Positions 44,451 through 51,982 of a DNA stretch of 64,000 nucleotides are shown here, one piece after another (within the stretch, counting starts at the first letter, position 1; each line of letters starts with the position of its first letter). Location of the stretch: assembly GCF_001543895.1 (NCBI RefSeq), contig NZ_JYIJ01000011.1:82593-146592 (forward strand), written 5' to 3'. The position numbers were made by a program, and so were the translations under genes. The stretch is from Carbonactinospora thermoautotrophica. Lineage in GTDB: Bacteria > Actinomycetota > Actinomycetes > Streptomycetales > Carbonactinosporaceae. The notes beneath the pieces are model-generated. The model saw only the letters and a list, made by a program, of their open reading frames with translations, was not told the origin of the DNA and did no database searches.

Positions 44451-45971
44451 GTGGTTTATGAGCATGAGCATGGGCATGAGCATGGACCGGTCGGTGACCT
44501 GTCGCGGATCGAGGCCATCCGGGATCGTGGGGTGCACCGGGCCGGTGAGCATGAGGGCCCGTTCTCTTTGCACGTGGTGGGTCTCGGTAAGGCCGGCGCG
44601 AATGTGATCGAGCGTTTGGTCAGCGATCCCCCCGAGGGGTTCCTGTCTGATCCGCGGACGTCGTTTAGCGCGTTGGCGATTGATATCGGGGATCAGGAAC
44701 TGCGGCCGATCCGGGAGAGTGCGGGGCGGTTGCCGGCGGATCGTGCGCAGGTGCGGACGGTCGCTCTTCCGGTTCTGGACCGGGCGTCGCTGTTCGGGGG
44801 GCTGCGCCGGTACCGGGAGTTCCTCAAGATGGAGTATCCGCGGTACTACTGGAATCCCAACTACGAGCCGTGGCTGCCCTCGGATATCCCCCTGCCGGCG
44901 GCGGGTGAGCACTTCCCGCGGGCTTTGGCGAAGGCGATCTACGGGGTGGAGTACTACCAGGGCGGGGCGGTCGCGGAGGAGCTTGACGCCTTCGCCAGGA
45001 GGGTCGCGGCCAGTGAGGCGATGCCGATCGTCTGCGTAATCTTTGGTCTGGCCGGGGGCACCGGAAGCGGCATCGTGGTGGAGCTCGCCCGCCACCTGTC
45101 CAACATCAAGCTGGGCCGCCGCGCCTGGGTGCTCGGCGTGGGAATCCTGCCGTGCGAGGGGGATCCTGACTACACGCGCGACGGCGTTTTCTTCCCGGCC
45201 ATCAACGAACTGGACTGCATGGTCGACGCGGAGAAGAACAAGGGTGTCATGGCGGTCTGGGGTGATCTGTACAAGAACCCGTTCACCGCCGGCTTCTTCG
45301 CAGTACCGCAGAACGTGGTCTACGACCACACCGGAGACCTCGCCGCGACGCACGAGCGGATCGACGCCGGGCTCGCGGCCTTCCTGGCCCGCGACAACAG
45401 CACGCACCTGTACGAGACGCTCAAGTTGCTCAACTGGCTCAACGTCCCGGCGGACCGTTGGCACCCGGCGGTGCGCGCCGAGCAGGGTGAGCGGTGGCTG
45501 AACCTGTTGGCGGTCGGGTTCGATGACGCCCAACCCCTGGGCGGCCTGGACCTGGCCGGGCCGGTGTCGTCGGACTACGCCGAGGCGCGGCTGTTCGGGC
45601 CGGCGGAGACGCTGACCGAGCAGCGGGCCGCGCGGGTGCGGGAGGAGACCGCCAAGACCGTCAAGACCGCCGTCGAACCGGGCGCGCTGACCTTCCCCTC
45701 GACCGGGCAGGCGGAAACCACGTTGTTCGTGCCTCATGTGTCCAAGCTGGATCTGGCCGCCTTCGTGCCGGCGCGGGAGGCCTACGACCGGCTGGATTGG
45801 GACGAGAAACTGCTACGCCACTCCTGGCTGCTCGACCTGGGCGTCCTGCTGTGCGAGCCGTCCACCCGGTTCGAAGGCATGGGCGGGGAATGCATTTTGG
45901 GTTGCGCCTGCTGGGTGGTCGTCCCCCACGCCGCCATCCGGGGCGAGATCAAGCCAGCCGTCAGGGTGTGA
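44451..45971 (+). CDS. Tubulin/FtsZ-fold GTPase-like protein with histidine-rich N-terminus (paralogue 1)
   Basis: The 506-residue protein has a tubulin-like GTPase layout: the first nucleotide loop 'HVVGLGKAGANVIERLV' (residues 41-57) and the signature 'FGLAGGTGSGIVVELARHL' (GGTGSG at 202-207), which is the phosphate-binding motif of tubulin and FtsZ. A catalytic-loop equivalent (NxDxx[DE]) could not be placed confidently. The N-terminus 'YEHEHGHEHG' could bind metal. The C-terminus has 'LLCEPSTRFEGMGGECILG' and 'CACWVVVPHAAIRGE', conserved in the paralogue at 46433-48133. It resembles Tubulin_2-like proteins of unknown role. It is not FtsZ by length or sequence. A 99-residue partner follows it. 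Confidence 0.75.
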   Translation: MVYEHEHGHEHGPVGDLSRIEAIRDRGVHRAGEHEGPFSLHVVGLGKAGANVIERLVSDPPEGFLSDPRTSFSALAIDIGDQELRPIRESAGRLPADRAQVRTVALPVLDRASLFGGLRRYREFLKMEYPRYYWNPNYEPWLPSDIPLPAAGEHFPRALAKAIYGVEYYQGGAVAEELDAFARRVAASEAMPIVCVIFGLAGGTGSGIVVELARHLSNIKLGRRAWVLGVGILPCEGDPDYTRDGVFFPAINELDCMVDAEKNKGVMAVWGDLYKNPFTAGFFAVPQNVVYDHTGDLAATHERIDAGLAAFLARDNSTHLYETLKLLNWLNVPADRWHPAVRAEQGERWLNLLAVGFDDAQPLGGLDLAGPVSSDYAEARLFGPAETLTEQRAARVREETAKTVKTAVEPGALTFPSTGQAETTLFVPHVSKLDLAAFVPAREAYDRLDWDEKLLRHSWLLDLGVLLCEPSTRFEGMGGECILGCACWVVVPHAAIRGEIKPAVRV

Positions 45972-46031
45972 CGGCTGATGCGACGGCCGACCTGGCGACG
46001 ACGCTGGTCATGAGCCAAGGAGGACGGCACC

Positions 46032-46331
46032 GTGTCCCTGGACTGGGCCGCTGTGGTCAAGCGCTATGAGAACGGCGCGCGCCTGGAGCCACTGCTAGGA
46101 GTGTCCACGTTGTCGGTGACCGGCGTGGACGAGGAGAAGATCTACGTCAAGCACCGGCTGTGGGAAGCTTCGCTGAGCCGCCGCAATCTTGAGCGAGCCG
46201 TGGAACTCCTCGAGAACGGCAAGATGACCCGGGTCGCCGCGGACTTCATCGACCAGTACCGGACGTTCATCGAGGACGAGCGACCGAGCACCGCGGCCAC
46301 CATTTTGAAAGATCTCGGTTACCTCGACTAA
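46032..46331 (+). CDS. Small partner protein of the tubulin-like gene (paralogue 1)
   Basis: This 99-residue soluble protein starts 'SLDWAAVVKRYENGARLEP' and ends 'TAATILKDLGYLD'. It has no signal peptide or transmembrane segment and is predicted helical at its C-terminus ('RRNLERAVELLENGKMTRVAADFIDQY', residues about 55-80). It is similar along its length to the protein at 49189-49488. No known domain was recognised. A GTG start at 46032 follows AGGAGG and comes 61 bases after the tubulin-like gene, so the pair is probably one transcript. Confidence 0.78.
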   Translation: MSLDWAAVVKRYENGARLEPLLGVSTLSVTGVDEEKIYVKHRLWEASLSRRNLERAVELLENGKMTRVAADFIDQYRTFIEDERPSTAATILKDLGYLD

Positions 46332-46416
46332 TTCTGAAGACCGAAGATCTCGGGTACCTCGAAGATACCTCGGCTACCTCGAATAATTCTGATTCTGAAG
46401 ACCTCGGTTACCTCGA
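46314..46416 (+). repeat. Degenerate tandem copies of the partner-gene 3' end
   Basis: Four copies of CTCGGnTACCTCGA start at 46314, 46349, 46369 and 46403, the first inside the coding end (encoding DLGYLD), the rest between the genes with intervening AATTCTGAAGA repeats. The array fills the space to the next tubulin-like ATG at 46433. Confidence 0.75.
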
Positions 46417-46432
46417 ATAGAAGGCACCGGCT

Positions 46433-50872: not shown

Positions 50873-50981
50873 CCTATAAGGCCGCTGACTCATATCGGAA
50901 TAACCGAGCCTGAATTCCTTCCGTTTCCCCCGGTGATCGGGGGAATCATCCTCGCCATCGCACATTCACAAGGAGGTTCCG

Positions 50982-51215
50982 ATGTCGACCGCAATCCCTG
51001 AGGCCCAGTCCAGCCCGACCCTGGCGATCCATCCGCTGCAGGACGGCCTGATCGCCGTCGCCGCAGCGATCGTGGCGTTGATCGCACTGTACGCGGTGTT
51101 CCTGGACCAGGGCCAGCTCCTGTCGCCGGTGCTGGGCAAGGTCGCCTACACGGCCAACTACCTGCACGAGTTCGCCCACGACGGCCGGCACCTGCTCGGC
51201 GCGCCCTGCCACTAG
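50982..51215 (+). CDS. cbtB: Cobalt transporter subunit CbtB-like
   Basis: The 77-residue membrane protein has one hydrophobic segment ('LIAVAAAIVALIALYAVFL', about residues 24-42) and a histidine-containing C-terminus 'YLHEFAHDGRHLLGAPCH'. CbtB is the small partner of CbtA in a B12-regulated cobalt transporter. The ATG follows AAGGAGG. The gene begins 109 bases after the amidase, with 11 bases to cbtA. No cobalamin riboswitch was recognised in the 109-base gap. Confidence 0.85.
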   Translation: MSTAIPEAQSSPTLAIHPLQDGLIAVAAAIVALIALYAVFLDQGQLLSPVLGKVAYTANYLHEFAHDGRHLLGAPCH

Positions 51216-51226
51216 GAGACATCGAC

Positions 51227-51982
51227 GTGACCACGCTGAGGACCCTGCTGGGGCGGGGGCTGGTGTCCGGCGGTCTGGGCGGGTTGGCCGCAGGAGCGTT
51301 CTCCTACCTGCTCGCCGAGCCGGTGATGGACCGCGCGGTGCGGCTGGAATCAGCCCGGGTCGCCGCGGAGGGGGCGCACTCCCACGCGGGGGAACACCAC
51401 GCCGAGGTGTTCACCCGCGCCACCCAGCACCTCGGCCTGGTGGTGGGCACCACCGTGGCGGGGCTGGCGCTGGGGGTGCTGTTCGCCCTGGCCTACGCGC
51501 TGCTGTACCGTCGCGACCCCACCACCGACCCCTGGGGCCGCTCGATCCGGCTCGCCGCGGCGGCGTTCACCGGGGTGTACCTGCTGCCCTTCCTGCGCTA
51601 CCCAGCCAACCCTCCCGGGGTCGGAGATCCGGCCACCATCCAGGTGCGCACCGCCACCTGGCTCGGGGCGATCGTGATCAGCCTGCTCGGGCTCGTCGCG
51701 GCCTGGCGCGCCCAGGCGCACCTGGCCCAGCGGGGCGCGCCGGCGCGGGTGCGGCAGCTGGCCACCGCCGGCCTGCTCACGGTGACCTTGGTCCTGCTGT
51801 TCCTCCTGCCCGGCACCGCCGACCCGATCGAGGTGCCCGCCCCGCTGCTGTGGGACTTCCGGCTGCTGTCGGTGGCCACCCAAGCGGTGCTGTGGGGAGT
51901 CCTCGGCGTGACCTTCGGTCTCCTCGCGGAACACACCGCGCGGGCGGCACGGGCTCCGTCCCCCACAACCGCCCCCGCCTGA
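51227..51982 (+). CDS. cbtA: Cobalt transporter CbtA-like
   Basis: This 251-residue integral membrane protein has about five hydrophobic stretches, an acidic/histidine-rich loop 'HSHAGEHHAEVF' near residue 50, and the CbtA landmarks 'RGLVSGGLGGLAAGAFSYLL' and 'FTGVYLLPFLRYPANPPGVGD'. It should form a transporter with CbtB in the cytoplasmic membrane, possibly for cobalt. Its histidine loop together with the histidine-rich tubulin-like protein supports a metal theme in this locus. The gene ends at a strong terminator. Confidence 0.87.
   Translation: MTTLRTLLGRGLVSGGLGGLAAGAFSYLLAEPVMDRAVRLESARVAAEGAHSHAGEHHAEVFTRATQHLGLVVGTTVAGLALGVLFALAYALLYRRDPTTDPWGRSIRLAAAAFTGVYLLPFLRYPANPPGVGDPATIQVRTATWLGAIVISLLGLVAAWRAQAHLAQRGAPARVRQLATAGLLTVTLVLLFLLPGTADPIEVPAPLLWDFRLLSVATQAVLWGVLGVTFGLLAEHTARAARAPSPTTAPA

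Follow-up and report, generated by a model that had tools for sequence, protein, structure and literature searches.

The tubulin superfamily is known for cytoskeletons rather than chemistry, and nitrile hydratases (NHases) are industrial enzymes. A locus of the actinomycete Carbonactinospora thermoautotrophica raises the question of what two tubulin-like proteins, TubA and TubB, are doing among genes for two small homologous proteins (SmlA and SmlB), a sigma-like regulator, an aliphatic amidase and a cobalt transporter. The locus lies in a stretch of 64,000 nucleotides (contig NZ_JYIJ01000011.1, positions 82,593 to 146,592), referred to here as the window. We present evidence that its TubA-SmlA-TubB trio probably encodes a cobalt-dependent heterodimer of the acetonitrile hydratase (ANHase) type, composed of tubulin-fold subunits, accompanied by an AnhE-type metallochaperone and hydrating short nitriles. 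This reading is based on homology to a gene cluster of Rhodococcus jostii RHA1, gene order, cobalt- and amide-related neighbours, co-occurrence with NHase, a confident tubulin-fold model and the retention of nucleotide-loop glycines. The locus is best regarded as an acetonitrile hydratase cluster, and hence as coding for a known enzyme; the surprise is that its subunits belong to the tubulin superfamily.

Results

Counterparts of the trio in Rhodococcus jostii RHA1

A check of the open reading frames in the window confirmed the genes of a preliminary description of this DNA, with their coordinates, their order and the two pairs of paralogues. TubA (44451..45971; 506 amino acids, 55.5 kDa), SmlA (46032..46331; 99 amino acids, 11.3 kDa) and TubB (46433..48133; 566 amino acids, 63.8 kDa) are encoded on the forward strand, TubA and TubB being the smaller and larger predicted subunits and SmlA a predicted cobalt metallochaperone of the AnhE type. 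The two large proteins are 42% identical over 535 alignment columns, and SmlA is 45% identical over 98 positions to SmlB (49189..49488, forward strand), a second AnhE-type paralogue of 99 amino acids within a longer frame.

The locus had been regarded as undescribed, a view that we abandon: the trio matches one on the RHA1 plasmid pRHL2, which we identify with acetonitrile hydratase. The pRHL2 genes encode, in order, a MarR regulator, an AmiC-like protein, an aliphatic amidase, a 514-residue tubulin-like protein (RS41530), a 99-residue protein (RS41535), a 568-residue protein (RS41540) and, later, a nickel transporter. Identity between window and RHA1 proteins is 40% for MarR (over 110 amino acids), 50% for the AmiC-like protein, 82% for the amidase, 63% for TubA and RS41530, 67% for SmlA and RS41535, and 65% for TubB and RS41540; SmlB is 43% identical to RS41535. 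The RHA1 trio has the protein accessions WP_011600030 and WP_011600032 for the two large proteins and WP_011600031 for the small one. The computed masses of the RHA1 trio, 55.8, 11.1 and 63.0 kDa, agree with those of the ANHase subunits, reportedly about 56 and 63 kDa, and of AnhE, said to be about 11 kDa.

Excerpts of two papers describe RHA1 ANHase as a cobalt nitrile hydratase with the gene order <alpha><AnhE><beta>, in which AnhE is a metallochaperone (PMC3511329; PMC3680314), and part of a third gives the order likewise (PMC7193024). The window trio has the subunit-AnhE-subunit order printed for RHA1 (PMC3511329). AnhE is stated there not to be a subunit-swapping activator (PMC3511329), and a passage of another report counts one nitrile hydratase and one plasmid amidase for RHA1 (PMC6941271). 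A canonical NHase alpha subunit was not found on pRHL2, in a search that, for RHA1, covered this plasmid only. We infer that the pRHL2 trio is the purified ANHase.

TubA and TubB as tubulin-superfamily proteins

The search against tubulin-family profiles that had been proposed as a check gave a match above the Pfam cut-off for TubA (Tubulin_2, 27.3 bits, cut-off 27) and sub-threshold matches for TubB (Tubulin, 28 bits, cut-off 33; Tubulin_2, 24 bits, cut-off 27), and at an E-value of 0.001 Pfam Tubulin was matched by 79 of 82 aligned rows. The GGTGSG motif begins at residue 202 of TubA and residue 205 of TubB. Within the nucleotide-loop motifs GxGxxG and GGGTGSG, glycines G23, G25, G28, G208 and G210 are invariant across the 82 rows, and G206, T207 and S209 are conserved in at least 90% of them. 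A model of TubB (predicted local distance difference test, pLDDT, 90.2; predicted template modelling score, pTM, 0.92) matched tubulin folds in both Foldseek and VIA-align; the model is confident for TubB, and a tubulin fold is predicted for the pair from this one subunit. No solved structure was found, and the sequence-near PDB chains are only CetZ and FtsZ (best E-value 2.7e-4 for TubB, 0.037 for TubA). The histidine-rich N-terminus of TubA had been taken as a clue to metal delivery; the feature is real, and among 25 aligned TubA rows it is confined to those of the window and RHA1.

Two paralogues, as in alpha- and beta-tubulin, with a predicted tubulin fold whose glycine loops are intact would suit a cytoskeletal role, as a scaffold or filament to organise the amidase, and the preliminary description had proposed just such a scaffold for a spiral-forming amidase. 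The catalytic T7 motif of FtsZ-type proteins is N-x-D-x-x-[DE]; sought anywhere in the sequence, it was found in only 7 of 170 family sequences. The scaffold is also opposed by the conserved, metal-type cysteine tail described below and by 11 of 24 related loci that have no amidase (neighbour counts, here and below, are within the stretches examined of these loci, many of which are cut by contig ends). We consider it highly improbable and have set the proposal aside. Under the hydratase reading, a bound nucleotide would be structural or used in assembly.

A cysteine-rich tail as a candidate cobalt site

The shared cysteine-rich C-terminal tail that had been noticed earlier was located in both large paralogues, at residues 479-499 of TubA (45885..45947, forward strand; GECILGCACW...RGE, with C481-x3-C485-x-C487, the predicted cobalt-binding motif) and residues 519-540 of TubB (47987..48052, forward strand; GECLLDGCGCW...RGE, with C-x4-C-x-C). 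Most aligned rows share the consensus GEC-x3-C-A-C-W. The C-x-L-C-S-C claw of classical NHase is not in the window trio, which has C-x3-C-x-C and C-x4-C-x-C instead; the tail resembles the claw with one residue more between the first two cysteines, and with two more in window TubB. By analogy with the C-T-L-C-S-C of classical nitrile hydratase, the C-x3/4-C-x-C tail may hold the catalytic cobalt.

When 29 complete TubA/TubB pairs were scored with a single pattern throughout (loci L008 and L026, whose genes are incomplete or split, were left out), the motif was found in both subunits of 13 pairs, in TubB only in 10, in TubA only in 6 and in neither subunit of none. In RHA1 only the smaller subunit carries it, TubB being without the tail that window TubB retains. 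That no pair lacks the motif altogether is suggestive, not proof, of complementarity between the subunits.

Recurrence and descent of the trio

The 24 related loci, from Cyanobacteriota, Pseudomonadota, Myxococcota and Bacillota, were fetched for encoding a TubB relative and form a non-random set, drawn by six peptide patterns from window TubB. In 24 of 24 the TubA-Sml-TubB order is the same, with Sml between both Tub genes; the TubA of L008 is split over three reading frames, and the TubB of L026 is cut off by the contig end. The recurrence of this order in every locus is more than chance. The earlier suggestion of a real system, with a tubulin fold (as predicted) and a link to cobalt, is supported. 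With strict cut-offs, the only positive genome among 394 of the class and 391 of the order was that of the window, and in a 299-genome sample of a single phylum the trio occurred only in the genome chosen as its centre; in these searches scoring was limited to the few top candidates of each genome. The trio family is rare, conserved and patchily spread.

In a tree of 67 sequences, a branch supported at 100/100 separates all 25 TubA proteins from TubB and TubC; the duplication is therefore old, and the two genes move as a pair. TubC is a third, tail-less tubulin-like form of about 380-450 amino acids (loci L012, L017, L022, L023, L025, L037 and L038) that in this tree derived from TubB at least twice, and in four of these seven loci (L022, L023, L037 and L038) it directly adjoins CbbQ/VWA genes. 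Fifteen plasmid records were matched and seven inspected. Six of the seven carry the trio (RHA1, NJ-530, N1, BAA-870, S2-17 and Agrobacterium MWF001), each with an amidase and a Co/Ni transporter, and the seventh, from Shinella, has TubC, CbbQ, VWA and amidase genes and no trio within the stretch inspected.

Cobalt- and amide-related neighbours

Among the neighbour families of the 24 loci, whose names come from Pfam searches with one representative each, the CobW GTPase is the commonest (21 loci). Any Co/Ni importer (NicO, CbtB, CbtA or CbiM) is found in 16, and CobW or an importer in 22; two CbtB-type groups are included, with representatives scoring 56.9 and 26.8 bits (cut-off 27, the second lying just under it). 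CbtA was seen in only 3 loci, so CbtBA is one of several interchangeable cobalt importers. AmiE is present in 13 loci, an AmiC-like gene in 14, either of them in 20, and AmiR in 7. The preliminary description had made the idea of a system depend on co-occurring partner genes, which mostly held: the small partner is there in all 24 loci, and the shortfall lies with AmiE and CbtA. Peroxiredoxin and ferredoxin-like genes each occur in 9 loci, and CbbQ and VWA in 7; the ferredoxin-like group had no Pfam hit and owes its name to the annotation at a like position in one plasmid record.

An enzyme of the same architecture that co-operates with the amidase might act on another substrate, such as cyanide, thiocyanate or another small nitrogen compound. 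The tie to acetonitrile is homology to the RHA1 trio only, and the CbbQ/VWA, peroxiredoxin and ferredoxin-like neighbours differ between loci, so that substrates may differ as well. However, the AmiE or AmiC-like genes of 20 loci point to amide products, the identity to the RHA1 trio is 63-67%, and we judge a different substrate to be quite improbable.

Co-occurrence with canonical nitrile hydratase

No Pfam NHase alpha or beta domain was matched by the window trio, and a tblastn search with the NHase of the same genome found nothing in the 64-kb window. Of the 17 trio genomes examined, 15 have canonical NHase alpha (PF02979) and two lack it; in full length it was present in 42 of 298 control genomes of one phylum (46 genomes listed, from which the centre and three genomes with nothing but weak fragments were subtracted). 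The Fisher p of 1.4e-10 for this difference is indicative only, as the groups differ in phylum make-up. The trio of locus L018 is closely preceded by NHase alpha and beta, the alpha gene ending 2.4 kb upstream of TubA. The genome of the window contains, on contig C10 (172000-188000), a classical Co-type NHase cluster that comprises Amidase (PF01425), NHase beta, NHase alpha with CTLCSC, NicO, an AmiC-like gene and an ArsR-like regulator (assigned by eye).

This association is in keeping with a trio that is no hydratase itself and serves as a GTP-driven cobalt insertion machine, maturing a canonical NHase encoded elsewhere in the genome. The NHase of the window's own genome, the NHase beside the trio in L018, the prevalence of CobW and the Co/Ni importers of 16 loci all favour such a machine. 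On the other hand, classical NHase clusters are described, in part of PMC3511329, as bringing their own activators; two trio genomes and plasmid pRHL2 are without canonical NHase; and an amidase accompanies the trio in 13 loci. Furthermore, 42 of 298 controls have NHase and yet the trio occurs only in the centre of that sample, and NHase therefore does not need the trio. An insertion machine is, in our estimate, unlikely. The earlier idea of a GTP-driven metal delivery device survives in its link to cobalt, but we read the Tub pair as the hydratase and the 99-residue protein as the part that would deliver the metal.

Small proteins, regulators and extent of the cluster

The model of SmlA (pLDDT 87) consists of a helix, a small beta-sheet and three helices, and a structure search with it returned no confident PDB fold match. 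From their sequences, the 99-residue Sml proteins are predicted to be the metal-delivery part of the system, as AnhE-type cobalt metallochaperones. Two loci (L010, 15422-17228; L016, 734-2477) have an extra AnhE-like gene beside a radical-SAM protein (Pfam on the L010 copy).

The remaining genes follow on the forward strand, and Pfam scores above cut-off upheld their earlier assignments. The sigma-region-4-like protein (48422..49015; Sigma70_r4_2), a predicted regulator, has 197 amino acids when the inner ATG at 48422 is taken as the start of a frame open over 48149-49015. A homologue (41% over 121 amino acids; region 4 below the Pfam cut-off) lies directly after TubB on the plasmid of Rhodococcus NJ-530 (L034, 9825-10175), and the reading frames that occupy this position in strains N1 and BAA-870, missed by tblastn, are alike in their middle part as judged by eye. 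The protein looks like a locus-specific actinobacterial regulator. AmiE (49826..50872; 348 amino acids within a longer frame) matches NCBIfam aliphatic amidase with 718 bits and Pfam CN_hydrolase, and is followed by the predicted cobalt transporter subunits CbtB (50982..51215; PF09489) and CbtA (51227..51982; PF09490, 201 bits). The strong terminator noted after CbtA is represented by a hairpin (52001..52034, forward strand; 14-bp stem, -34.7 kcal/mol, z -7.5), and is a likely terminator that lacks a T run.

A MarR-family gene (53837..54355, reverse strand; Pfam MarR) and a gene for an AmiC-like ligand-binding protein (54371..55483, forward strand; Pfam Peripla_BP_6), a predicted nitrile/amide sensor, lie beyond the hairpin. 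Because both are homologues of RHA1-cluster genes, the cluster may reach past CbtA to include them. Remains of a DUF255 thioredoxin-domain gene are spread across three frames at 52087-52877, and relatives are found near the trio in 5 of the 24 loci.

The same genome has a decayed second copy of the locus on contig C15 (219000-230000; L031), at about 5134-6400 of that stretch. It matches window 43908-44175, 44185-44815, 51161-51338 and 51941-52011 colinearly at 75-89% DNA identity, keeping the upstream region and TubA start, the CbtB/CbtA junction, and the CbtA end and hairpin region; the interior is gone. This copy points to a past duplication of the segment from TubA to CbtA as a single unit of about 8 kb, bordered at about window 43908-52011. 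An 83% identical direct repeat (43453-43784 and 56213-56548, about 12.8 kb apart) flanks the whole cluster, overlaps a small lipoprotein-like gene at its start and is a possible trace of duplication or insertion. Further upstream, a radical SAM/SPASM protein follows a small protein among oxidoreductase genes (26915-28455), a region that is probably part of a mycofactocin-type cluster, and an AAA ATPase and VWA_CoxE pair (30240-32991) lies about 12 kb from the trio; the pair is akin in kind to the CbbQ/VWA genes near the trio elsewhere, and the blastp clusters differ.

Discussion

The genes of the window can be arranged in a pathway in which CbtBA would import cobalt, SmlA and SmlB would pass it to the TubA and TubB subunits, the hydratase would convert R-CN to R-CONH2, and AmiE would convert the amide to acid and ammonia, with the MarR, AmiC-like and sigma-like proteins controlling expression. 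A more specific proposal, to which we give somewhat less than an even chance, is that a tubulin heterodimer has turned metalloenzyme, a C-terminal cysteine claw holding the catalytic cobalt near the subunit interface and the GTP pocket being kept for assembly or maturation and not for filaments.

Several observations weigh against these readings. The ANHase alpha subunit is reportedly the larger one, and the first gene here is the smaller, while PMC3511329, in the part seen, places alpha first; subunit naming is therefore unsettled. What ties the RHA1 trio to ANHase is the order of the genes, their context and the reported subunit sizes. ANHase is said in a passage of PMC7329996 to mature by self-subunit swapping, contrary to PMC3511329. 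The same passage names RHA1 ANHase among the NHases and gives C-x-L-C-S-C as present in all known NHase alpha subunits, yet the RHA1 trio has C-x3-C-x-C; if that trio is ANHase, the claim of universality is not borne out. The complementarity of the tails is non-significant (P 0.057 for zero neither-pairs by chance, with related rows), and 22 of 112 uncut TubB proteins in the search list, counted without regard to their partners, have no tail motif. Finally, that trio genomes so often carry canonical NHase would be compatible with an accessory role of the trio as well.

A tubulin-superfamily make-up of acetonitrile hydratase was not found in the literature searched. The placement supplies a fold, a candidate site for cobalt and a role of GTP that can be put to the test; if true, it would add small-molecule catalysis to the superfamily and would represent a second, unrelated invention of a cobalt nitrile-hydrating cysteine site. 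The neighbourhood set supplies candidates for maturation, namely CobW, CbbQ/VWA and the AnhE paralogues.

Classical Co- and Fe-type NHases share with the trio the predicted reaction, cobalt, a C-x(n)-C-x-C motif and a nearby AmiC-like gene; their fold is not known to be related to that of the tubulin-like subunits. CetZ, FtsZ, TubZ and alpha/beta tubulin are 9-16% identical to the TubB model in the structural-alignment rows listed, and the window subunits differ from them in an extra cysteine tail and a metabolic gene context. Other divergent bacterial FtsZ-tubulin relatives with a Tubulin_2 domain are the families FtsZl1 and FtsZl2 (Makarova and Koonin 2010; PMC2875224) and an 'FtsZ-like' group (PMC9871819), as far as the available parts of these papers describe them; the words 'nitrile' and 'cobalt' are absent from both main texts, supplements aside. 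FtsZl2 is given as without gene associations and FtsZl1 as associated with VWA, kinase and membrane genes (PMC2875224); among the 24 loci, VWA occurs with CbbQ in 7. The closest known system is the RHA1 ANHase cluster, which has the same gene order and nearby amidase, MarR, AmiC-like and metal-transporter genes. To this arrangement the window adds SmlB as another AnhE paralogue, the sigma-like gene and CbtBA. Its MarR and AmiC-like genes lie downstream, whereas those of RHA1 lie upstream of the amidase.

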